Virus record (IMG/VR): IMGVR_UViG_3300032236_001613
Location: 62,001 to 126,000 of that record
Direction: 5' to 3' (one strand)
DNA from: a virus
Length of the DNA: 64,000 bases
Position 1 is the stretch's first letter. Each line of letters opens with the position of its first letter. The notes beneath the pieces were generated by a model that worked only from the letters and a program-made list of their open reading frames with translations, ran no database searches and had not been told where the DNA came from. Positions 15,804 to 27,160 of the stretch are shown piece after piece. The position numbers and the translations under genes were made by a program.

Positions 15804-15832
15804 AGTATACTACGGTTTTACCAAAAGGTCAA
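15804..15832 (-). promoter_or_regulatory. early sigma70 promoter (15774-14650 operon)
   Basis: TTGACC, 17-bp spacer TTTTGGTAAAACCGTAG, TATACT. TGA of 15829-16095 nested in the -35. Confidence 0.9.
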
Positions 15833-16095
15833 GATTTTTTGTATAGAGAGTGAAGGGCTTCGTGCTGCTCCAAAGCTTTCAACTGCTTCTTCACCTGAGT
15901 GAGATAGAGGTAGCGGCGATTGACTTCGGATCGGGCCAACTCACCATCGCAGGTCAAGTTCTCAGGGCTAAGGTCAGACTCTAGATGACCTGCCAGATGC
16001 CGACGGTGTTGCGGATCGTTGAGGTCCAGATCGGCCTCCTTGAAGAAGCGATTGATCTGATTGATGTGATCTAGATATTCAGTGAGTTCTTCCAT
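15829..16095 (-). CDS. helical hypothetical protein
   Basis: 88 aa, charged and helical (LARSEVNRRYLYLTQVKKQL). A histidine-rich turn (HRRHLAGHLE) lies in the middle. Single-gene cassette behind 16122-16150. Function unknown. Confidence 0.65.
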   Translation of the reverse strand: MEELTEYLDHINQINRFFKEADLDLNDPQHRRHLAGHLESDLSPENLTCDGELARSEVNRRYLYLTQVKKQLKALEQHEALHSLYKKS

Positions 16096-18521: not shown

Positions 18522-18899
18522 TTACTTACTAGATGTCTGGACGAAGTGAGCTTGAGACCTATAGCCTAGTTCGCGTAGGCTAGTATTAATCAACTGCATG
18601 ACCGTCTTAGAAACGGGCGTGTCTGTTCTTGGAGGTTGAATACTCCAGGGCATTCCTCGCTCTTTGGGTTTCAAAAATGGATATCGATACTTCTCACCAT
18701 TAGGGTAACGAAACTCTTGCCCAGTTTTTTTGAGCAAGGTATTGTAAAGCCAATAAAGCATGTTGCTACGCTGACGTGCACGATCGTAGATATCTTTAGA
18801 AGATTGATCAATCTGTTCGATACCCCGACGCAAGGCACTGAGAGCTAATGCTTGAAGCTCGGGGTCTGGGTTACTTTCTAACAGTTCTTGTATCTGCAT
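18522..18899 (-). CDS. late protein with capsid-targeting-like N-terminus
   Basis: 125 aa. Begins MQIQELLE|S, matching the (L/I/V)-x-E cleavage pattern of T4-type prohead protease. The rest is helical and basic (ALRRGIEQIDQSSKDIYDRA, later YPFLKPKERGMPW). A late promoter TAAATA ends 4 nt before the ATG and no SD is present. Predicted internal head protein; activity unknown. Confidence 0.7.
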   Translation of the reverse strand: MQIQELLESNPDPELQALALSALRRGIEQIDQSSKDIYDRARQRSNMLYWLYNTLLKKTGQEFRYPNGEKYRYPFLKPKERGMPWSIQPPRTDTPVSKTVMQLINTSLRELGYRSQAHFVQTSSK

Positions 18900-18903
18900 A
18901 CTG

Positions 18904-18909
18904 TATTTA
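18904..18909 (-). promoter_or_regulatory. T4-type late promoter for 18522-18899
   Basis: AATAAATACAG on the minus strand; only 4 nt separate TAAATA from the ATG, so the mRNA is predicted leaderless. Confidence 0.7.
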
Positions 18910-19230
18910 TTTGTAGAAAGTTGCAGCGTCTTCGCTGGGTACGAAACGCTGCTGCCTCTTGATTTTTTGGAGATAAATCCTTCCAGCCCCGCTGAATCGG
19001 GCTCAAGTTATCCTACTTGTGCGACAAACAATAGAAACTTTCGTTTCTACCCGGCAAAGCCCTCATCATAACGACAATGACTCTACCCGCGGTTATACCG
19101 TTTCATTAGTCCCCTAGGAGCATAGCTAGCATTCAGACCGCTAGACGACACTAAGGGTTTCGCTTTCGGTTCAGGCATATGTAGTTATCAACATCACAGA
19201 CCGCTACAGCGGGGTTTTTGGTTTAATAGT
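18910..19230 (-). other. no clear gene; structured stretch downstream of tRNA-Leu
   Basis: About 320 bp. On the minus strand it contains a perfect TAGAAAC-GAAA-GTTTCTA hairpin (19032-19049), an AGCCC/GGGCT hairpin near 18985-19003, a GCAGCG/CGCTGC hairpin with TTCG/CGAA inner pairs at 18922-18953, and GNRA-like loops. A 31-codon frame (MPEPKAKPLVSSSGLNAS...) lacks a ribosome site. It lies just 3' of tRNA-Leu and is probably cotranscribed. Not tmRNA or RNase P RNA by the conserved elements I can check. Confidence 0.4.
19199..19221 (+). terminator. possible terminator, plus strand
   Basis: CCGC-TACA-GCGG stem followed by GGTTTTTGG. Reading toward the tRNA-Leu antisense; low stem length makes it tentative. 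Confidence 0.3.
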
Positions 19231-19519
19231 TGGTGCCCTGAGCCGGACTCGAACCGGCACGCCAGTGGCGTCAGATTTTCTTACTACTACAGTTTTCACT
19301 GCCAGCTTGCGCTGTTTGTAGTCTGGACTATACCTTGACCTTAGCTATTGCTTTAGGTCCTTGCCGTCTAGTCTCTACACCTTCCTATTTCTAGGCTTGG
19401 CTCGGTATTAGCAGTTAAGCCTTCACCGAATTTGACAAGTTACATCTTAAAAGTTTCCTAATAAGAGCTCAAATCTTTTCTCTAAGTCTGATGCGTCTAC
19501 CTTGTTCCGCCATCAGGGC
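19231..19519 (-). tRNA. tRNA-Leu(UAA) interrupted by a group I intron
   Basis: 5' exon 19519-19484 (GCCCTGA acceptor strand, D arm GCG/CGC, TCAGA, loop CTT); 3' exon 19279-19231 (loop AAAA, TCTGA, long variable arm ACGCCA/TGGCGT, GCCGG-TTCGAGT-CCGGC, TCAGGGC, A, encoded CCA). Joined exons give loop CTTAAAA with anticodon TAA and a perfect 7-bp acceptor stem. The intron sits between U34 and A35, as in cyanobacterial and plastid tRNA-Leu(UAA). Promoter at 19544-19572. Confidence 0.92.
19280..19483 (-). ncRNA. minimal group I intron (204 nt)
   Basis: On the minus strand the core elements appear in order: P (AATTCGGTGAAGGCTTAACT), Q (TACCGAGCCAAGCC), R (GTGTAGAGACTAGACGG) and S (AAGGTATAGTCC). 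The intron ends in G before the 3' exon, and its 5' splice site follows a T. There is no endonuclease ORF. Its length is close to the smallest natural group I introns, such as the Azoarcus tRNA-Ile intron of about 205 nt. Expected to self-splice. Confidence 0.92.
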
Positions 19520-19543
19520 AAATTATCAACTAACTATCTATTT

Positions 19544-19572
19544 AATATACGCTAATTATCTTCAGTTGTCAA
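19544..19572 (-). promoter_or_regulatory. sigma70 promoter for tRNA-Leu
   Basis: TTGACA, 17 bp, TATATT, 25 bp upstream of the mature 5' end at 19519. Confidence 0.8.
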
Positions 19573-19721
19573 ATGAGTTTTAGCCTCAGTTTACTATTCT
19601 CTTGCTACCTGATGTAAGTGCTTACAACACTTTTTACTAGTATCACAGGCTACCCGCTTCGAACAAGGTTAGGCTTGTACTTGTACTTGACCCGACGAGC
19701 TGGGCTAAAACTCATAAAACT

Positions 19722-19750
19722 ATTATATGCTAGCACCAGCATAAGGTCAA
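19722..19750 (-). promoter_or_regulatory. upstream minus-strand sigma70 promoter
   Basis: TTGACC, 17 bp, TATAAT. Only a 21-codon frame (MSFSPARRVKYKYKP...) follows at 19712 before the tRNA-Leu promoter; it may be a second promoter for the tRNA or express a peptide. Confidence 0.75.
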
Positions 19751-19760
19751 CAATTAACAA

Positions 19761-19766
19761 TAAATA
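19761..19766 (+). promoter_or_regulatory. T4-type late promoter for 19772-20947
   Basis: AATAAATACTCCT then ATG: 5 nt between TAAATA and the start codon, no SD. Confidence 0.8.
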
Positions 19767-19771
19767 CTCCT

Positions 19772-20947
19772 ATGCGCATCCAAGAGCTACTATTAGAATA
19801 CAACCGACAGATTACCCTACAAAAGATAGGCGATCAGCTGACTCAAACAGCAGCTAGAGAACACACTACTGCAGAAGAGGCTATAGCTGCACTGGAAGAA
19901 ATGGATCCAACCGCAAATAAACAGTATACTCCTTGGCTGGCACGACAATACATTAAGCAGCAGTTTAGATTAGAGGACGCAGATAGAATACGCACAGTAC
20001 TAGATAACTTTGGTCAACTTAAATCAAGACTACCTGTTGAACAAAGAGATATAGGACGTATGGATTTTTACCAACTTGATGATTTAATTAATCAAGTATT
20101 AGATGTTAAACTAGAGGTGGATAAGCCTATTGAAGGAGGTACTTTCCCTATAGTTCCTGACTCCCGAGTCTTATACAACGGACCATTAGGGCAATTAGCT
20201 ATACCAGAAACCCGAGAAGCCAGTTGCGAATTAGGTCGTGGTACTGAATGGTGTACGGCTTATACAAAATCAAATAATCAATTTGATAGTTATAATCGAA
20301 GAGGTCCTTTATACGTATGGCGAGACAAAAATGGTGAGAAATATCAATTCCATTTCAGCGGCGGCCTACAAATGATGGATAGTCGAGATCGCCCTATAGA
20401 AAAAGATAAAATAGATTATTTTAGAAAACAGCATCCTGTACTTAAAAAATTGTTTCGACAAATAGAATCTCAAGCGTTAAAAGACCCTATATTAGCAACT
20501 CAGTATGCCGAAAAAGTAATTGGAGGACGTTGGCCCGAAGGCGAGGCCACAATAGCACAAACCTCACAGGCAGCATATTACTACGCTCGAAAAATAATCA
20601 AAAGTCGGTTTCCTGAGGGGGAAGCAGCATTATTAGAACCATCAACTGACATTAATTTTCTAATTTTTTATGCCGAACAAGTAATCAAAGGTCGTTGGCC
20701 TGAAGCTGAAGAAATGATAGCACAAAACCCATCGGCAGCATTTTACTACGCCCGACACATAATCAAAGGTCCTTTTCCTGAGGGGGAAGACGCAATAGCT
20801 CAAGATGACAGGCTCGCTTACAACTATGCTGTAGAAATACTTAAAGATCGTTTCCTAAAAGGAGAAAAGACTCTACAAAAGAGCAATGTTTATTGGTACC
20901 ATTACAAAAAACATTTCGGAATAAAACAACGTAAAGGTAAAACCTAA
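19772..20947 (+). CDS. predicted internal head protein, WCTA-domain with C-terminal repeats
   Basis: 391 aa. MRIQELLLE|Y is a capsid-targeting-like N-terminus. Residues 10-235 align with 23127-24458: EYNRQITLQKIGDQL, MDP-x-x-x-KQYTPWL, then the signature REASCELGRGTEWCTAYTKS, FDSYNRRGPLY, GEKYQFHF and MMDSRD. From about residue 240 four to five repeats of about 35 aa follow (AYYYARKIIKSRFPEGEAAL-like), a repeat type found in phage proteins. The domain's activity is not known to me. Leaderless late mRNA predicted. Confidence 0.75.
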   Translation: MRIQELLLEYNRQITLQKIGDQLTQTAAREHTTAEEAIAALEEMDPTANKQYTPWLARQYIKQQFRLEDADRIRTVLDNFGQLKSRLPVEQRDIGRMDFYQLDDLINQVLDVKLEVDKPIEGGTFPIVPDSRVLYNGPLGQLAIPETREASCELGRGTEWCTAYTKSNNQFDSYNRRGPLYVWRDKNGEKYQFHFSGGLQMMDSRDRPIEKDKIDYFRKQHPVLKKLFRQIESQALKDPILATQYAEKVIGGRWPEGEATIAQTSQAAYYYARKIIKSRFPEGEAALLEPSTDINFLIFYAEQVIKGRWPEAEEMIAQNPSAAFYYARHIIKGPFPEGEDAIAQDDRLAYNYAVEILKDRFLKGEKTLQKSNVYWYHYKKHFGIKQRKGKT

Positions 20948-20949
20948 TA

Positions 20950-22125
20950 ATGCGTATCCGAGAACTAATTGATCACTCACACCCTATAGTTTACTTAGAC
21001 ATGGACGGAGTATTGGCAGACTTTGATCACGGTTATCGCGAACTATCTGGGCAAGATCCTAAAGACACATTTATACCTAATCCTAAAGATGATCCTGTGC
21101 TTAGCCGAATGATTGGCACAGATTTCTTTGCTAGATTACCTAAGTACAAGACAGCGGATCGGCTAGTTCAAATGGTGGTGGATCGATTTGGATCTTACTC
21201 TATATGCTCAAGCCCATTACGCGGCGATCATGATAACAGTGAGCACAATAAAAAACAATGGATACAGCAACATCTTAATCCACAACCTGCATCCATAGTT
21301 ATAACTGGTAGAAAAGAAAAATACGCTATACGTAATGGAGTTCCGAACATCTTGATTGACGATAAGTCATCTAATATTGCTAAATGGACTGCTAAAGGTG
21401 GAATAGGCATACTCTATTACGCTCCTAGAGATTCTTTAAATCAAGTGGCTAAAGTTCTTGATCAGTCTTTAAACGAAGAAAAAATCGAGTTCGATCCTGC
21501 TGATCCCGAACATGAAGAACAGTTTCTTAGACCTAAAGAGTTTCGTAAACAGGGCGCATACTCTTATGTAACTCATCATCCTAGTCATGATCCACATATG
21601 GTTCAAAAGACAGATCGTACCGCTTTACCACCTGAACAGAATCCTTTTTATCAATATGCTCGAGCAATTGCTACAGCAGAAAAACGTAACACTAACCCAT
21701 ACTTGCCTAGAGTACGAGTAGTTGATGCCGAAGAAACAGATTGGGGTGGCGTAGTCTTTACTTACGAATGCGAAAGATTACATGACTTTACCGAAGTAGA
21801 ACACCAGTTGGGCGAAGATGTAGTTGTAAACATAGGCAGAAAAATGTTTAATGATTACGACACATTATCACGAAATTACATTAGAGACCACAGAGGTGAT
21901 AACCTCAATGCTTGGGAAGTATTAGCAGGAATATTGCACTTTATGCAAGTAGGACATAAATGGAATTGGGTTAAAGACCCATTATTCAAACAGGCACTAG
22001 ATATTCTAAAGGAAATTGACGAGCAGACTGGTAACTTCTTTCAATGGGATTGGAAGGCAGATAACCTAATGATTAGGTTCACCAGTAAAGGTCCTCAGCT
22101 AGTGCTTACGGATCCGTTAAGTTAA
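20950..22125 (+). CDS. HAD-type nucleotidase-like domain fused to kinase-like domain
   Basis: 391 aa, 2 bp after the previous gene. Residues 13-190 look like a 5'(3')-deoxyribonucleotidase-type HAD phosphatase: motif I IVYLDMDGVLADF, a CSSP stretch for motif II, and ILIDDK for motif IV. From about residue 205 a second domain has GAYS-x-V, ...DPHMVQK and a C-terminal WDWKADNLMIRF...LVLTDP resembling a kinase catalytic loop and metal site. MRIRELIDHS at the start resembles the capsid-targeting family but lacks the terminal Glu. Confidence 0.7.
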   Translation: MRIRELIDHSHPIVYLDMDGVLADFDHGYRELSGQDPKDTFIPNPKDDPVLSRMIGTDFFARLPKYKTADRLVQMVVDRFGSYSICSSPLRGDHDNSEHNKKQWIQQHLNPQPASIVITGRKEKYAIRNGVPNILIDDKSSNIAKWTAKGGIGILYYAPRDSLNQVAKVLDQSLNEEKIEFDPADPEHEEQFLRPKEFRKQGAYSYVTHHPSHDPHMVQKTDRTALPPEQNPFYQYARAIATAEKRNTNPYLPRVRVVDAEETDWGGVVFTYECERLHDFTEVEHQLGEDVVVNIGRKMFNDYDTLSRNYIRDHRGDNLNAWEVLAGILHFMQVGHKWNWVKDPLFKQALDILKEIDEQTGNFFQWDWKADNLMIRFTSKGPQLVLTDPLS

Positions 22126-22130
22126 TAAGT

Positions 22131-22208
22131 TGGTGGGACTACTAGGGTACGATCCTAGACTCTCGCCGATTATGAGTCGGGGGTTTTAACCAATTAAACT
22201 ATAGTCCC
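22131..22208 (-). tRNA. tRNA-Met(CAU) (or Ile2)
   Basis: 78-nt cloverleaf on the minus strand: acceptor GGGACTA/TAGTCCC perfect, D arm GTTT/AAAC, anticodon stem CCCGA/TCGGC with loop CTCATAA (anticodon CAT), T arm CTAGG-ATCGTAC-CCTAG, encoded CCA. The T loop starts with A instead of the usual T. A CAT anticodon may be elongator Met or lysidine-modified Ile. Confidence 0.92.
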
Positions 22209-22216
22209 TTAAAAAT

Positions 22217-22363
22217 TTAAGCCTCAGTCAAGTATGCGTATTGATGTCCCGGATACTGTGCATCCAAACGGCGCCTAGCATCCCAATAATCATCAGCTAG
22301 AATACGAACATCAAAGTAATCACTACGATCCAAACTGTAAACTCTAGCCTTGTAAGTACGCAT
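22217..22363 (-). CDS. small hypothetical protein
   Basis: 48 aa read directly: MRTYKARVYSLDRSDYFDVR then ILADDYWDARRRLDAQYPG. The plan (basic strand, acidic turn, helix, strand) suggests a small alpha/beta fold. AAGGACACAGC precedes the ATG at 22363; promoter at 22401-22429. Early-type gene inside the late cluster, just upstream of tRNA-Met and likely cotranscribed with it. Confidence 0.7.
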   Translation of the reverse strand: MRTYKARVYSLDRSDYFDVRILADDYWDARRRLDAQYPGHQYAYLTEA

Positions 22364-22400
22364 TGCTGTGTCCTTGTGTGTAACTGTCTAAGTGCAGACT

Positions 22401-22429
22401 AATATACACTGATACTAGCAAATGGTCAA
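22401..22429 (-). promoter_or_regulatory. sigma70 promoter for 22217-22363 and tRNA-Met
   Basis: TTGACC, 17 bp, TATATT. Confidence 0.75.
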
Positions 22430-22455
22430 GGCCTCTGCAGCGGGGTATTAGGTTA

Positions 22456-22461
22456 TAAATA
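22456..22461 (+). promoter_or_regulatory. T4-type late promoter for 22468-23130
   Basis: TTATAAATAATAATT then ATG; 6 nt between TAAATA and ATG, no SD. Confidence 0.85.
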
Positions 22462-22467
22462 ATAATT

Positions 22468-23130
22468 ATGCGTGCACAAGAAGTATTTGAATCTTATAGA
22501 TGGAGCTGGTCAGACGATGATGCAGAACAGCTCTCTAGTAAGATCCCACCCAAATATCTAGAAAGATTACGTAATCTCACTGTCCGGGATCGACGAGTTA
22601 GCAACTTTATGGATACCCATAACATTAACTTGGTTCAATTTCTCACAAGATTTCAGGAACAAAAGGGTTTAGATCCAGTAAACAAAACTGAGTTAGCATC
22701 TGATTTTATTGTTAAGATTCCGAAAAATAATCCTGAAGGTTTTTATTTTGCAAATAAATCTAATGAAGTTAGAGCCGGTGCCGAATTAGATATTGCAGAT
22801 CAAGCACATACAGATCTATATCGCGTTTATATGAAGACCAAACTTCGCGCAGAAAAGATAAACACTCCATTTACATTAACATTAAAAGAAGCCGCCGACA
22901 TCTTTAAAGCACAGGGAGGCAAATGTGCATTAACTGGAGAAAAGTTAGGAAAAGGACTAGGATCATCACCCAGTATGGATCAACGAGTTCCTAGAGTGAG
23001 AGGCGGCCCTGGTTATACTAAAGACAATGTACAATGGGTTACCGCACAGATTAACTTTGCTAAACAGAATTTAACTAATGAAGAATTTGCAGATCTTTGT
23101 AAAAAAGTTGCTGCACATTCCGGGAATTAG
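22468..23130 (+). CDS. HNH-type nuclease with capsid-targeting-like N-terminus
   Basis: 220 aa. MRAQEVFE|S fits the (V)-F-E cleavage pattern. The C-terminal 75 residues have the layout of a compact HNH/EndoVII-type fold: GGKCALTGEKLG, SPSMDQRVPRVRGGPGYT and DNVQWVTAQINFAKQNLTNE. The His of a classic HNH is not obvious (SMDQR replaces the usual DH), so this may be a variant. If packaged it would act on host or competing DNA early in infection; inference. Confidence 0.7.
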   Translation: MRAQEVFESYRWSWSDDDAEQLSSKIPPKYLERLRNLTVRDRRVSNFMDTHNINLVQFLTRFQEQKGLDPVNKTELASDFIVKIPKNNPEGFYFANKSNEVRAGAELDIADQAHTDLYRVYMKTKLRAEKINTPFTLTLKEAADIFKAQGGKCALTGEKLGKGLGSSPSMDQRVPRVRGGPGYTKDNVQWVTAQINFAKQNLTNEEFADLCKKVAAHSGN

Positions 23131-24458
23131 AGTCTGTACCATTTGTCCTTTAACTTTACTAAAAACCTCGATACAGTTTGATACGCATAATGGCCATCAT
23201 ACTCTGTAGGCCCCGATTCCATGTCCCGAATAAGTTCGTTCACAGTATCTTTGAATTGCCTACGATATGTTAAGTCTGCTTGATCTGCGTTGCCTAAGGT
23301 CTTGATTTCATGCTTTCCTGGACCATCCGTGGGTAGATAATAGCGATCAGCTACAACTACTACAGCAGAAAAATCAGGTGGAAATATGGCATATACAAGT
23401 TGGGATGCTTTTTGTCCACGACTGGGTGCAACTCTGAGTGTTTGTAAAAAAGAACCCATATGTACATTAAAAAGTTCTTCAAAAGGATCAACCAACTCCC
23501 ATTCAAACATACCACTTTCTACTAGAATGCAAGAGTACATGCCATTTTCTAATTGACGAGCTTTCCATTTAAGATATTGTTTTGTATGGTTTAATCCATT
23601 ATAAGATGGCTTACGTGGTGGCTTTAACCAACTTAAACGATATTCTTTAGCTTGGTCTGCAAAGATTTTTGATAGCTCAGGAAACCTTCTAACTAGACTG
23701 CTGCCCCACTCACTAATGTCATTATCATGTTCGTCCATAAACTGGTGGCTAGGAAAATGAAACTGGTATTTTTCCCCAGTATGTACAGGCTGTCTAGGTA
23801 TTATAATATACATAGGACCATCTTGGTTATAGCTGTTAAACATGTTGTTGTTTGTAGCAGCTGTACACCAACGAGTGTTCTGCCCATAAAAGCAAGCTGC
23901 TTCTCGATCATTTGGTTTTATAACAATTAGACGATCATCACGAAATACTTCATCGTAATCGCCGCGGGGTGACTTCTGCTTTTGGTCATCTCTACGACTT
24001 CTGACTGCAGAAAAAGCGTTATATAACGTTCTAAAATTATAAGCGTTAATATCTCTAAGATTAGTTAATCTGCGACGTTTGTAGTCATCAAATTTTTCTA
24101 GAGAATCTGTAATCTCAGTAGCTACATCTTCTGCATGCATCGCGTCCTTACAATAGTTTTTTATTAACCATTGAGTGTATTCTTTATGTGGGGTGGGATC
24201 CATTAATTCAAAAATATTTACTAAGATTTTTTTAGACTCAGCTTCGATTGCATGGCGAGGATTATCATAGTCGTTGTGTTCGTCATAGGCCATACATAAA
24301 ATACTGTACCCTCTTTCACTAAGTAGGTCAGCAGATTTTAGACGTTGTATGTGATTATAACTTTCCAATTCAAAGAAATGTTTATACAACTTATCACCAT
24401 AATTCTTAACGGTGATTTCATGATTATATTCGACAAGGAACAGTTCGTTGAGTAACAT
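23127..24458 (-). CDS. predicted internal head protein, WCTA-domain paralogue
   Basis: 443 aa. MLLNELFLVE|Y, then EYNHEITVKNYGDKL, MDPTPHKEYTQWL, REAACFYGQNTRWCTAATNN, FNSYNQDGPMY, GEKYQFHF and FMDEHD, collinear with 19772-20947. The C-terminal 180 residues are unrelated to that paralogue's repeats. Its stop overlaps the convergent nuclease gene. Third gene of the 25268-24871-24458 late operon. Activity unknown. Confidence 0.75.
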   Translation of the reverse strand: MLLNELFLVEYNHEITVKNYGDKLYKHFFELESYNHIQRLKSADLLSERGYSILCMAYDEHNDYDNPRHAIEAESKKILVNIFELMDPTPHKEYTQWLIKNYCKDAMHAEDVATEITDSLEKFDDYKRRRLTNLRDINAYNFRTLYNAFSAVRSRRDDQKQKSPRGDYDEVFRDDRLIVIKPNDREAACFYGQNTRWCTAATNNNMFNSYNQDGPMYIIIPRQPVHTGEKYQFHFPSHQFMDEHDNDISEWGSSLVRRFPELSKIFADQAKEYRLSWLKPPRKPSYNGLNHTKQYLKWKARQLENGMYSCILVESGMFEWELVDPFEELFNVHMGSFLQTLRVAPSRGQKASQLVYAIFPPDFSAVVVVADRYYLPTDGPGKHEIKTLGNADQADLTYRRQFKDTVNELIRDMESGPTEYDGHYAYQTVSRFLVKLKDKWYRL

Positions 24459-24460
24459 TA

Positions 24461-24871
24461 TTAGGCCTGATCTGCATCCATCACATCACAAGTAAGTGGC
24501 CAAGGTCCACGATGCGGCGGGCGTTGCATTGCTTTATAATGATCATAATTGGTATTGGCTGCAGCATGATTTTCGATGTTACTTGCTACTGTTTCGGCAA
24601 TGTCTCTATTGCTGTAACTAGCAACTGGTGCCCACCCTTGCCCGTGTGCTTGATGTACACGGCGTGCAGCTTCCCCAGGGCTTAATCTAGTACCTGCTAC
24701 TACAGCTTCGACTACTACTTCAAATGGTGTAACTGCATCATTTAGGATTACTACTGTAAATCCTCCAGGGACGTATAGTGGTACTTCTTGTCTTTGACGA
24801 ACTGTTGGACGATCAACTACTGTATCATCGTCAGTATCTACTGGTGCTTCAACTAATTCTTGTATACGCAT
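24461..24871 (-). CDS. clpS: ClpS-like adaptor with capsid-targeting-like N-terminus
   Basis: 136 aa. After MRIQELVE|A and an acidic linker, residues 30-130 align with ClpS: VPLYVPGGFTVVILNDAVTP (cf. YKVILVNDDYTP), F-E-V-V-V-E-A, RRVHQAHGQGWAPV (cf. LMLAVHYQG-x-A), the IAETVASN helix, and a C-terminal PLTCDVMDA (cf. PLLCTLEKA) after an insertion. ClpS delivers N-degron proteins to ClpAP. The Asn-Asp and His of the ligand pocket are kept; the second Asp is Ala and the gatekeeper Met is Phe, so specificity may differ. Confidence 0.8.
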   Translation of the reverse strand: MRIQELVEAPVDTDDDTVVDRPTVRQRQEVPLYVPGGFTVVILNDAVTPFEVVVEAVVAGTRLSPGEAARRVHQAHGQGWAPVASYSNRDIAETVASNIENHAAANTNYDHYKAMQRPPHRGPWPLTCDVMDADQA

Positions 24872-24875
24872 ACGA

Positions 24876-25268
24876 TTATGCCACCGTTGGTCTTATGGAT
24901 TTTTGTAATCCTTGTATATTTTTACCTAGATCGTCTTGATCTTTTTGTATTTGTTGACTTTTTTGTACAATTGCATCAAGTTCTTTCTGTTGTTCTGGGT
25001 TGTTAGCTAGTGGTAGACCTTCGGGATTTTTAAGAGCTTGTTTGGCAAGATTGTATCCGCCGGAAAATGCTCCAGCAGCACTGCCCATTTTAGCTGCTCC
25101 TACCTGTGCATTTGCCACAGTAGAACCCAATGCTGATCCAACTTTGCCAGCTAACTTACTAGCAATACCACCACTGCCTGGCGTATCTGTACTACCTGCT
25201 GTCGGAGTTCCAATAGTAGTAGTTCCACCCTGTTCAATTAAGTCAATATAATATCTTAGGTTTTTCAT
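24876..25268 (-). CDS. predicted internal head protein, Ala/Gly-rich
   Basis: 130 aa. MKNLRYYIDLIE|Q is the capsid-targeting-like start. The middle is small-residue rich (ASKLAGKVGSALGSTVANAQ), the end is a helix (KSQQIQKDQDDLGKNIQ). First gene of a late operon leading to the ClpS-like and WCTA genes; TAAATA ends 5 nt before its ATG. Function unknown; the small-residue helices might be membrane-active. Confidence 0.65.
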   Translation of the reverse strand: MKNLRYYIDLIEQGGTTTIGTPTAGSTDTPGSGGIASKLAGKVGSALGSTVANAQVGAAKMGSAAGAFSGGYNLAKQALKNPEGLPLANNPEQQKELDAIVQKSQQIQKDQDDLGKNIQGLQKSIRPTVA

Positions 25269-25273
25269 AAAGA

Positions 25274-25279
25274 TATTTA
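25274..25279 (-). promoter_or_regulatory. T4-type late promoter for 25268-23127 operon
   Basis: GCTAAATATCTTT then ATG on the minus strand. Divergent from the late promoter at 25295-25300. Confidence 0.75.
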
Positions 25280-25294
25280 GCTGAGTTTAAACAA

Positions 25295-25300
25295 TAAATA
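25295..25300 (+). promoter_or_regulatory. T4-type late promoter for 25307-25498
   Basis: CAATAAATAGATTGT then ATG; 6 nt between TAAATA and ATG. Confidence 0.85.
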
Positions 25301-25306
25301 GATTGT

Positions 25307-25498
25307 ATGCGCATACATGATTTATTAGAAAACTTTGCAGATGGTAAAGGTCCAGGACGTCCAGGCGATAGTCAACGTCATGGTATTCCAAAGAAAGCCA
25401 CAATGGCTCAGCTACAGAAAGCTGCTCGAGCTAAAGGACGTAAAGGACAATTAGCACGTTGGCAAATTAATATGCGTCGTGGTAAGAAGAAAAAGTAA
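25307..25498 (+). CDS. very basic predicted internal head protein
   Basis: 63 aa. MRIHDLLE|N, then KGPGRPGDSQRHGIPKKATM and a strongly basic end (ARAKGRKGQLARWQINMRR, GKKKK). A basic, DNA-compatible protein with a capsid-targeting-like start is what T4-type internal proteins look like. Function beyond DNA binding is unknown. Confidence 0.75.
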   Translation: MRIHDLLENFADGKGPGRPGDSQRHGIPKKATMAQLQKAARAKGRKGQLARWQINMRRGKKKK

Positions 25499-25501
25499 TC
25501 T

Positions 25502-25702
25502 TTATTTTTTTACTAGATTTCTAATATCTTCGACTTTTTCTCTTTCGATTAGATCAATTATAACACCGGTGAGTTCTATTTCTTTCTTAATAAAGAACAT
25601 CTTACGATTAAGTTCTTCTAAGCGTTCTTGATAAAATTTTAATTCTTTTTCTTTTTCTTCTTTTAATTTGTATATGTCTTGAATTAAAATTATATCACTC
25701 AT
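25502..25702 (-). CDS. small coiled-coil protein
   Basis: 66 aa, nearly all charged helix (YKLKEEKEKELKFYQERLEE). It follows 25708-26280 by 5 bp, so is probably in the same late transcript. Convergent with the basic protein gene, 3 bp apart. Function unknown. Confidence 0.65.
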   Translation of the reverse strand: MSDIILIQDIYKLKEEKEKELKFYQERLEELNRKMFFIKKEIELTGVIIDLIEREKVEDIRNLVKK

Positions 25703-25707
25703 TAGGC

Positions 25708-26280
25708 TTATCCCCAGCTAATACTAGCTCCATTTTCTTGAGCAAATTTTACCATTTTGATCAGTGCATCAATATATCTATCAATTTGACTTTGACTACG
25801 ACCCACATCTATCATTCTAGGACCAGTATGTCCGATATGTGTAACACCTTGATCGTCAGTATGCTGGCGGCCCATAGGACCACGTTCATCACTAGGGTCC
25901 TGAGTATATTGGCTAGTATTTTGATTCTTTAACTGGATAAGTCTACGCATAAGCTTAGGTAGATCTTGATGATGTATTATGCCCGAATAGTCAGTATCTG
26001 TAATTCCTAGCATACGTTGTATCTCAAACCCGTTGGAATTACTTACACTTAGTTCAGGAGCACTAGAAACCCATTCTTCGGTTTCTCCCGCACCATCACA
26101 GCGTCTGCATGTTTCTTCGCCGGTACTCCACCGCTGTTTTCCTGTGCCATCACATACAAAACAAGGCTCCATTTGTTTGCTTTGCCATTCCATACTGGAC
26201 CAAACTTTATCCCCGTCATAATCTGTTAATTTTACAGGGTTAAAGGTCATGCCTTCAATTAATAAATCTTTAATACGCAT
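25708..26280 (-). CDS. predicted internal head protein with CxxCxGxG zinc motif
   Basis: 190 aa. MRIKDLLIE|G start. Residues 35-70 hold CFVCDGTGKQ and CRRCDGAGET, a pair of CxxCxGxG repeats as in the DnaJ zinc domain, likely one zinc site. The rest has no recognised domain (GRSQSQIDRYIDALIKMVKF near the end). TAAATA ends 5 nt before the ATG; no SD. Confidence 0.7.
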   Translation of the reverse strand: MRIKDLLIEGMTFNPVKLTDYDGDKVWSSMEWQSKQMEPCFVCDGTGKQRWSTGEETCRRCDGAGETEEWVSSAPELSVSNSNGFEIQRMLGITDTDYSGIIHHQDLPKLMRRLIQLKNQNTSQYTQDPSDERGPMGRQHTDDQGVTHIGHTGPRMIDVGRSQSQIDRYIDALIKMVKFAQENGASISWG

Positions 26281-26285
26281 AAAAT

Positions 26286-26291
26286 TATTTA
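26286..26291 (-). promoter_or_regulatory. T4-type late promoter for 26280-25502
   Basis: GCATAAATAATTTT then ATG on the minus strand; 5 nt gap. Confidence 0.8.
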
Positions 26292-26304
26292 TGCCAAACT
26301 GATC

Positions 26305-27081
26305 TTACTTTGCAGGCGGGGGCGACTGTACAAAAAGTTTCTGTGCAGCGATGCTATCTACAGGCGGCGCAAGTATAGTCCAATCAGATCCTAACACAGG
26401 TGTTAGATGAATATGACTACGAGGTATCCAATACTTATCTACATCAATATCTAACTGATCAACCATATTACTGATAACCGAATCTAAACAAACTAATGCG
26501 TTAGCGTTTTCGATAATAGTCAACCAATCAAAAATACTACCTGTAATGCCTTCTCGAATATCGATGCGTTGCCAATCCGATGGCAAACTTGAAAGGTCAG
26601 GATTAGTTTTAAAGCTGCTGCCTTCCAAATGTGTTACGTAGTAATTGGTATTCTTTACTAGACGATCGTACAATGCGTTTTCGGTTACTGTGTCTCTAGT
26701 AATGCATTCAGATAACTTCCATTTATTTTTAAAAGGAACTCCAGCTTTAGTATACTTAAACTCATCAAATTTCTGTATTTGGAACCAAGGAACGTCGCTG
26801 AGTTCTGGGATTACATTTAGGCTCTGATATAAGCAGACTATTTCATCACAGCCCGCTTTGTTAAGTAGCTTCATCGGATCCTCGTAGAAGAATTTACCAG
26901 CTGCGTCGGTTACCATAGGAATCCAATTTACCCAAGGTGCAGTGTTGATAAAACTTGGTAAAAATTCCTGACAAATTGGCCAATAAATTTGTACACCTTC
27001 GTTGTAATAATAACGTGCAATAGGCAACGCCATGCAAATATCACCTAATCCTCTACTCTGTATAATGCCAAGTTTCTTCAT
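26305..27081 (-). CDS. glycosyltransferase family 9-like protein
   Basis: 258 aa. GIIQSRGLGDICMALPIARY at the N-terminus, Y-W-P and a C-terminal ENANALVCLDSVISNMVDQ match the heptosyltransferase-like GT-B plan (GDxxxALP; a short motif with D-S before the sugar-donor helix). It lacks a capsid-targeting start and has an SD (AGAGGAAC). Likely modifies phage structural proteins or host surface sugars; substrate unknown. Confidence 0.65.
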   Translation of the reverse strand: MKKLGIIQSRGLGDICMALPIARYYYNEGVQIYWPICQEFLPSFINTAPWVNWIPMVTDAAGKFFYEDPMKLLNKAGCDEIVCLYQSLNVIPELSDVPWFQIQKFDEFKYTKAGVPFKNKWKLSECITRDTVTENALYDRLVKNTNYYVTHLEGSSFKTNPDLSSLPSDWQRIDIREGITGSIFDWLTIIENANALVCLDSVISNMVDQLDIDVDKYWIPRSHIHLTPVLGSDWTILAPPVDSIAAQKLFVQSPPPAK

Positions 27082-27109
27082 ATGTTCCTCTTAAGTAAAA
27101 TAATATACG

Positions 27110-27115
27110 TATTTA
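27110..27115 (-). promoter_or_regulatory. T4-type late promoter for 26305-27081
   Basis: ATTAAATACGT on the minus strand, 28 bp upstream of the ATG with an SD between, so a leadered mRNA. Confidence 0.65.
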
Positions 27116-27149
27116 ATATTTGTCTAATATCTAAATTATAATTTTGATA

Positions 27150-27155
27150 TAAATA
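27150..27155 (+). promoter_or_regulatory. T4-type late promoter for 27161-27424
   Basis: GATATAAATAATTGT then ATG; 5 nt gap, no SD. Divergent from 27110-27115. Confidence 0.85.
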
Positions 27156-27160
27156 ATTGT

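Follow-up and report, generated by a model that had tools for sequence, protein, structure and literature searches.

A tRNA-Leu(UAA) gene in the window (the whole 64,000-nucleotide stretch of viral DNA analysed here) is split by a group I intron, and this intron is one of a large, overlooked family of introns in phage tRNA genes. The best explanation of the data as a whole, to which we assign a probability of roughly 0.88, is that a spliceable group I intron from a phage-resident lineage, spread among phage tRNAs, occupies the only tRNA-Leu(UAA) detected.

With introns allowed, ARAGORN called a tRNA-Leu(taa) at 19231-19519 on the minus strand, 85 nt long when spliced and containing a 204-nt intron. 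Removal of 19483-19280 leaves a complete 85-nt tRNA with an encoded CCA, and ARAGORN together with an analysis of the anticodon stem places the intron between U34 and A35 of the anticodon loop (Table 1). The preliminary description of this locus was correct on all of these points: the coordinates, the 204-nt length, the U34/A35 site, the encoded CCA and the lack of an ORF. It also called the intron minimal, which is a fair term for an intron of quite ordinary size, as the median length of distinct phage Leu(UAA) introns shorter than 320 nt is 202 nt among the matches listed. The 204 nt of the window intron hold no ORF and thus no endonuclease gene of the homing type. Its site, 34/35 of a UAA tRNA, also sets it apart from Azoarcus-type introns, which lie at 36/37 of a CAU tRNA. 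Neither default ARAGORN nor Rfam RF00005, each run on the window, recovered the intron-bearing tRNA-Leu.

P1 is formed by the 5' exon CUU and intron positions 1-3 paired with the internal guide UUUGAG. Within it, CUU pairs with GAG, and the U34·G14 pair lies at the splice site. The UUU of the guide can pair with AAA of the 3' exon to form P10. As the guide is complementary to the joined exons CUUAAA, P1 and P10 together would fix both splice sites.

Table 1 Features of the intron-bearing tRNA-Leu(UAA) locus in window coordinates.
Feature	Position	Strand	Details and evidence
5' exon, tRNA-Leu(UAA), 36 nt	19484..19519	-	Ends ...CAGACUU (C32 U33 U34); ARAGORN -i; spliced 85-nt tRNA
Group I intron, 204 nt, ORF-less	19280..19483	-	Starts AGAGAAAAG, ends GUAAG; omega-G at 19280; ARAGORN -i, RF00028, covariation
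3' exon, tRNA-Leu(UAA), 49 nt	19231..19279	-	Starts AAAAUCUGA, encoded CCA last; ARAGORN -i
Internal guide sequence UUUGAG	19468..19473	-	Sequence; P1 columns; guide/anticodon matching test
P2 hairpin, GAAA tetraloop	19445..19466	-	Two-sided changes in 9/9 pairs, 73% of cells paired
P3-P6a core and P7 5' strand	19360..19439	-	P3 CUUGUC/GGCAAG, P4 UUCGGU/ACCGAG, P5, P6, P6a
P7 and enclosed P8	19326..19373	-	P7 = 19373-19369 with 19330-19326 (GACUA/UAGUC); pseudoknotted with P3
P9, P9.1 (GCAA loop), P9.2 (GAAA loop)	19283..19322	-	Structure count, 29 sequences
tRNA-Met(CAU)	22131..22208	-	Adjoins tRNA-Leu in the same order in G004; ARAGORN; synteny
88-aa ORF	15829..16095	-	40% identical homologue just before intronless tRNA-Leu in G004 (L365:14641-14886); tblastn

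A covariance-model search had been proposed in the preliminary description as a check, with the lack of a match counting against an intron. When both window strands were searched, Rfam RF00028 matched the intron with 64.3 bits (cut-off 50, E 5.3e-14) over 19308-19493, covering the full model (1-253). The window intron is the one RF00028 match in the 328,068-bp virus record; absence by this model is weak evidence, since with strict filters it missed the intron of Agrobacterium phage Atu_ph07. The folding energy of the window intron has a z of -4.55, and 0 of 200 shuffles were equally stable.

Covariation was assessed in an alignment of 29 phage introns against a pseudoknotted P1-P9.2 structure specified by hand. 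In these introns 93.8% of cells are paired as compared to 79.8% after shuffling, and 36 of the 67 pairs have two-sided changes (26.6 shuffled). The covariation score of 0.380 exceeds both the shuffled value (0.136) and the values obtained with partners slid (at most 0.091), although the lead over the slid versions is partly built in because the structure was derived from the window sequence. More weight attaches to the number of compensatory changes. Such changes are found across most helices, P3 and P7 among them. Across the 29 sequences the CUU/GAG columns of P1 and the U34·G14 pair are invariant; P3 and P4 are paired in 100% and 99% of cells, with two-sided changes in 4 of 6 P3 pairs; and P7 is likewise paired in 100% of cells and has one double change, AU to UA, in 7 sequences. 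P8 is 100% paired in its outer part and 91% on the loop side, and the corresponding values for P9, P9.1 and P9.2 are 98.6, 100 and 99.3%. The hallmarks of a group I intron are present: a pseudoknotted P3/P7 core with the guanosine site in P7, a U·G pair at the splice site, and G as the last intron base (...UAAG). We infer from this architecture a complete and probably active group I intron. After transcription, the intron would fold into P1-P9.2, and an exogenous G bound in P7 would attack after U34, held in place by the invariant U·G of P1. The freed U34 would then attack after omega-G, joining the exons into a normal tRNA that reads UUA.

To place this intron among others, related copies were collected by one exact 20-base R-element motif, AAGGTGYAGAGACTNNACGG, which occurs in at least 120 stretches in IMG/VR and at least 118 in GTDB genomes. 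Among the matches listed, tRNA introns were resolved with splice rules in 93 phage and 100 bacterial cases; the earlier view that a tRNA intron is uncommon in a phage does not survive these numbers. The phage introns among the matches listed interrupt Leu(UAA) (62), Arg(UCU) (16), CAU (5), Lys(UUU) (4) and Arg(CCU) (2) tRNAs, with single cases in Lys(CUU), Glu(UUC), Thr(UGU) and Ser(UGA). The bacterial introns listed are mainly in Leu(UAA) (52), Arg(CCU) (18) and CAU (18), with a few in Thr and Lys. Arg(UCU) accounts for 10 of 75 distinct phage introns and 0 of 100 bacterial ones among the matches listed (Fisher p 1.5e-4). Such proportions describe a sample drawn with one exact motif and are no census. 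Named carriers include Agrobacterium phage Atu_ph07 (L122, tRNA-Leu), Gordonia phage Daredevil (L098, tRNA-Lys), a Microcoleus phage (L125, annotated tRNA-Arg) and the huge phages (484-735 kb) LR756501, LR756511 and LR756508. Several of the intron-bearing metagenomic contigs hold phage genes such as rIIA or UvsX, and others are phage by IMG/VR classification alone.

Isotype assignment depended on correct boundaries. Splice sites located by mechanical rules alone, without ARAGORN, led to noisy isotype calls, and this approach was replaced. At many phage loci the ARAGORN labels tRNA-Tyr(ata) and Phe(gaa) stemmed from mis-set boundaries, and T/G splice rules returned Leu(UAA). The minor bacterial isotypes R ACG, T CGT, F AAA, Y GTA and R TCG are probably boundary errors as well and were not used. 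Some individual loci had features of their own. In the Atu_ph07 record, no tRNA is listed at the intron-bearing tRNA-Leu; the annotation has a hypothetical protein (AUZ94936.1, 112825-112941) over its 3' portion. Four loci (L010, L012, L105 and L113) combine a UAA anticodon and an intron with a short variable arm (~74 nt spliced), unlike the body of a class II tRNA-Leu. One 179-kb viral contig (G027, IMGVR 3300044606_000144; L345, L353-L355) contains four group I intron matches.

By sequence, we assign the virus to the T4-type jumbo myoviruses related to the GAP32/CBB group. Its major capsid protein is 67-71% identical to those of Vibrio phage 2.275.O, Sinorhizobium phage Phosso, GAP32 and CBB, and 82% identical to that of a closer relative, G004. 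These kin phages were found through the capsid protein; a search for relatives of the 391-aa flanking protein found none. The tRNA-Leu(UAA) of G004 is intronless and 78% identical to that of the window over all 85 nt, and it lies in the same gene order, with a homologue of the ORF at 15829-16095 followed by tRNA-Leu and then tRNA-Met. Another genome, G003, has two Leu(UAA) genes, both intronless. Searches of the related phage records recovered no group I intron, and some of these records hold an intronless Leu(UAA). Since a kin phage has the same tRNA in intronless form, joint acquisition of tRNA and intron is not required; gain in the window phage or loss in G004 may each account for the difference.

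The surroundings of the tRNA in the window have several features of their own. Just upstream, an ORF-free stretch is enclosed by a 13-base inverted repeat, ATGAGTTTTAGCC...GGCTAAAACTCAT, with further predicted pairs (19570-19728; folding z -2.0). Directly downstream, another ORF-free stretch on the minus strand (18980-19216; folding z -2.15) has a predicted multi-branched fold closed by CCCCGCUG/CAGCGGGG. Rfam searches of the two stretches gave no match. Seven neighbouring ORFs on both strands of 18522-27424 share a short N-terminal leader of the form M-R/Q-I/A-x-E/D-L... (MQIQELLES, MRIQELLLE, MRIRELIDH, MRAQEVFES, MRIQELVEA, MRIKDLLIE and MRARDFITE), which we take to be reminiscent of the T4 capsid-targeting leaders of packaged internal proteins. 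In a loose test of the leader motif on all window ORFs, 12 of 71 matched as compared to 8%, which is not clearly above background. Also near the tRNA region, 19772-20947 and 23127-24458 encode two proteins of unknown function that both match PHROGs 28193 and 17056 and hence are probably paralogues. A phage-encoded Fe/Mn superoxide dismutase and an Fe-S cluster assembly protein lie at 27458-28012 and 28353-28703.

Intron trees group the phage copies together. In a tree of all isotypes, the phage/bacteria label changes 11 times as compared to 52.5 times with shuffled labels, and in a Leu(UAA) tree the corresponding values are 2 and 23.9. The latter tree was built from ~206 columns and midpoint-rooted, has many weak forks, and leaves out six long-branched or odd rows. 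In it, 28 of the 30 phage rows lie on one side of a branch with a support of 96/92. L022 and L066, also phage Leu(UAA) introns, are placed apart from that main group. Monophyly of the phage introns is not rejected (p-AU 0.40). Nineteen rows, all of them phage introns and including that of the window, form a set (98/94) separate from the bacterial introns sampled. Cyanobacterial introns form a set of their own (100/100), which joins the phage set with weak support (63/85) in this midpoint-rooted tree. Given the rooting and the weak forks, the direction of transfer between phages and bacteria is not given by the tree; the nesting of the window intron in an all-phage set lends no support to recent acquisition from a bacterium, cyanobacterial or other. 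Intron identity is 82% between the window and L010 and 81% between the window and L113, whereas the exons are 55% identical in each case. The difference between 82 and 55% indicates that introns have changed tRNA backbones. Combined, these comparisons lead us to regard the window intron as a phage-resident mobile element rather than a recent bacterial import. The horizontal transfer raised in the preliminary description is thus borne out as movement between phage tRNAs, in line with the syntenic intronless relative, and not as acquisition from a recent bacterial source.

Sister introns offer a possible means of such movement. HNH ORFs lie within the tRNA-Leu(UAA) introns of L038 (776 nt) and LR756511 (700 nt) and are 44% identical to each other; another HNH ORF, on the opposite strand, lies in the tRNA-Arg(UCU) intron of L053. 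The HNH-type genes of the window itself (22468-23130 and 30991-31512) were considered as trans-acting homing enzymes and set aside, as no relation between them and the HNH ORFs inside introns could be detected (best E about 0.2-0.5). With no endonuclease in the window intron and unrelated HNH genes nearby, its current mobility is uncertain. Recombination, at times initiated by the HNH homing endonucleases of sister introns, is the most likely route by which ORF-less copies would spread from one phage tRNA gene to another, and matching changes in the guide sequence would give access to new anticodon loops.

The guide sequences themselves were compared across the family. In phages, the three guide bases 5' to the P1 triplet fit the 3' exon of their own tRNA type with 2.23 of 3 pairs, as compared to 1.15 for other types (0 of 2000 permutations); in bacteria the values are 1.97 and 1.16 (2 of 2000 permutations). 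Some tRNA types are represented by one intron each, so this test leans on few independent cases. The fit supports accurate splicing across the family and a guide that would be adapted to each anticodon loop. We lean slightly towards a broader scenario, in which an old, phage-owned pool of tRNA group I introns jumps between isoacceptors by retuning of the guide, partly driven by HNH enzymes, hides many functional tRNAs from standard annotation, and has a target, Arg(UCU), that among the matches listed occurs in phages only. With a similarly modest preference, we would count Leu UAA, Arg UCU, Lys UUU/CUU, Thr UGU, Ser UGA and Glu UUC as the targets of that pool.

Other origins for the window gene were weighed against a phage-resident lineage. 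A bacterial host, cyanobacterial or proteobacterial, could have supplied its tRNA-Leu(UAA) recently and together with the intron: the same site and architecture occur in tRNA-Leu of cyanobacteria, alphaproteobacteria, Bacteroidota and Acidobacteriota, and a host origin is suggested for a small number of phage introns (L077 in Arg(CCU) grouping with Skermanella, L044 in CAU with Gulbenkiania). The window intron, however, is separated from every bacterial row by its place in the all-phage set (98/94), its best identity among the matches listed (82%) is to phage introns, and a kin phage has the same tRNA without it. Recent import is already disfavoured by these data, and we consider it very unlikely.

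The intron might instead have decayed and ceased to splice, leaving a tRNA pseudogene. Two U·U mismatches in P2 would fit with decay, and a host tRNA-Leu could serve the phage. Yet the catalytic helices, the splice-site U·G, omega-G, the tRNA arms and the CCA are all intact, and covariation reflects selection on the fold across the group. No other Leu(UAA) was found among the tRNAs of the virus record, so the intron splits the only UAA-decoding tRNA detected. As UUA is the commonest leucine codon in window ORFs (35% of Leu codons), non-splicing would be costly, depriving the phage of its only detected reader of that codon; decay is accordingly highly improbable. The importance of this codon, together with the persistence of ORF-less introns across many phages, could also be taken to suggest an intron kept for its benefit. 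Group I splicing needs guanosine, and guanosine-dependent splicing might time the release of tRNA-Leu(UAA) during infection. Such a regulatory role is hardly likely, given that the kin phage records searched yielded no group I intron and that some of them have an intronless Leu(UAA). On the plain reading, the phage-resident intron would be a neutral, spliced selfish element, of no benefit to the phage beyond its harmlessness when spliced out.

These findings bear on how phage tRNA genes are described. All phage introns known by 2014 are reported to lie in protein genes (Hausner et al. 2014, PMC3984707), in agreement with the preliminary description, which had named such genes as the usual site of phage group I introns. 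A 2017 paper reports an insert of ~2.5 kb in a tRNA-Stop of Vibrio phage pVa5, called the first intron-interrupted phage tRNA and, according to its authors, a possible artefact (PMC5746245), and papers on Lak megaphages and other jumbo phages mention tRNA introns (PMC8346664, PMC13037316). These cases likewise concern interrupted tRNA genes of large or lytic phages; in the passages found, the introns are not identified as group I, and the class is not named for the Lak and jumbo phages. In the open-access literature we found no description of phage tRNA introns as group I, and earlier reports elsewhere are possible. Phage group I introns can no longer be said to avoid tRNA genes. Some phage tRNA counts are too low, as default ARAGORN and RF00005 miss the window tRNA and that of Atu_ph07 is overlapped in its 3' part by an annotated hypothetical protein. 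The tRNA sets of jumbo phages, used in arguments on codon adaptation and anti-defence, need a recount with introns allowed. Many natural pairs of intron and anticodon are now on hand for studying ribozyme retargeting.

Among known systems, the protein-gene group I introns of phages (T4 td, Twort, SPO1) are of the same ribozyme class, are phage-borne and sometimes carry HNH endonucleases, but they interrupt coding genes and not tRNAs. The bacterial Leu(UAA), Arg(CCU) and CAU introns of alphaproteobacteria and others (Azoarcus, Agrobacterium type) share the R-element motif and the size class. They differ in that the Arg(CCU) and Azoarcus-type CAU introns lie at 36/37, and the phage Leu introns are shorter (median 202 as compared to 225.5 nt among the matches listed) and group apart. 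The closest likeness in site is to the tRNA-Leu(UAA) introns of cyanobacteria and plastids, which are usually filed as subgroup IC3, a subgroup that the window intron resembles in its R element and P9 region only. These introns interrupt the same tRNA between U34 and A35, as the preliminary description had said, and sampled cyanobacterial loci indeed read GGACTT-intron-AAAATCC; they are ORF-less and alignable with the window intron and have a near-identical R element. In contrast to the cyanobacterial introns, which occupy a separate tree branch, the window intron is shorter, is borne by a phage, and moves between tRNA backbones.
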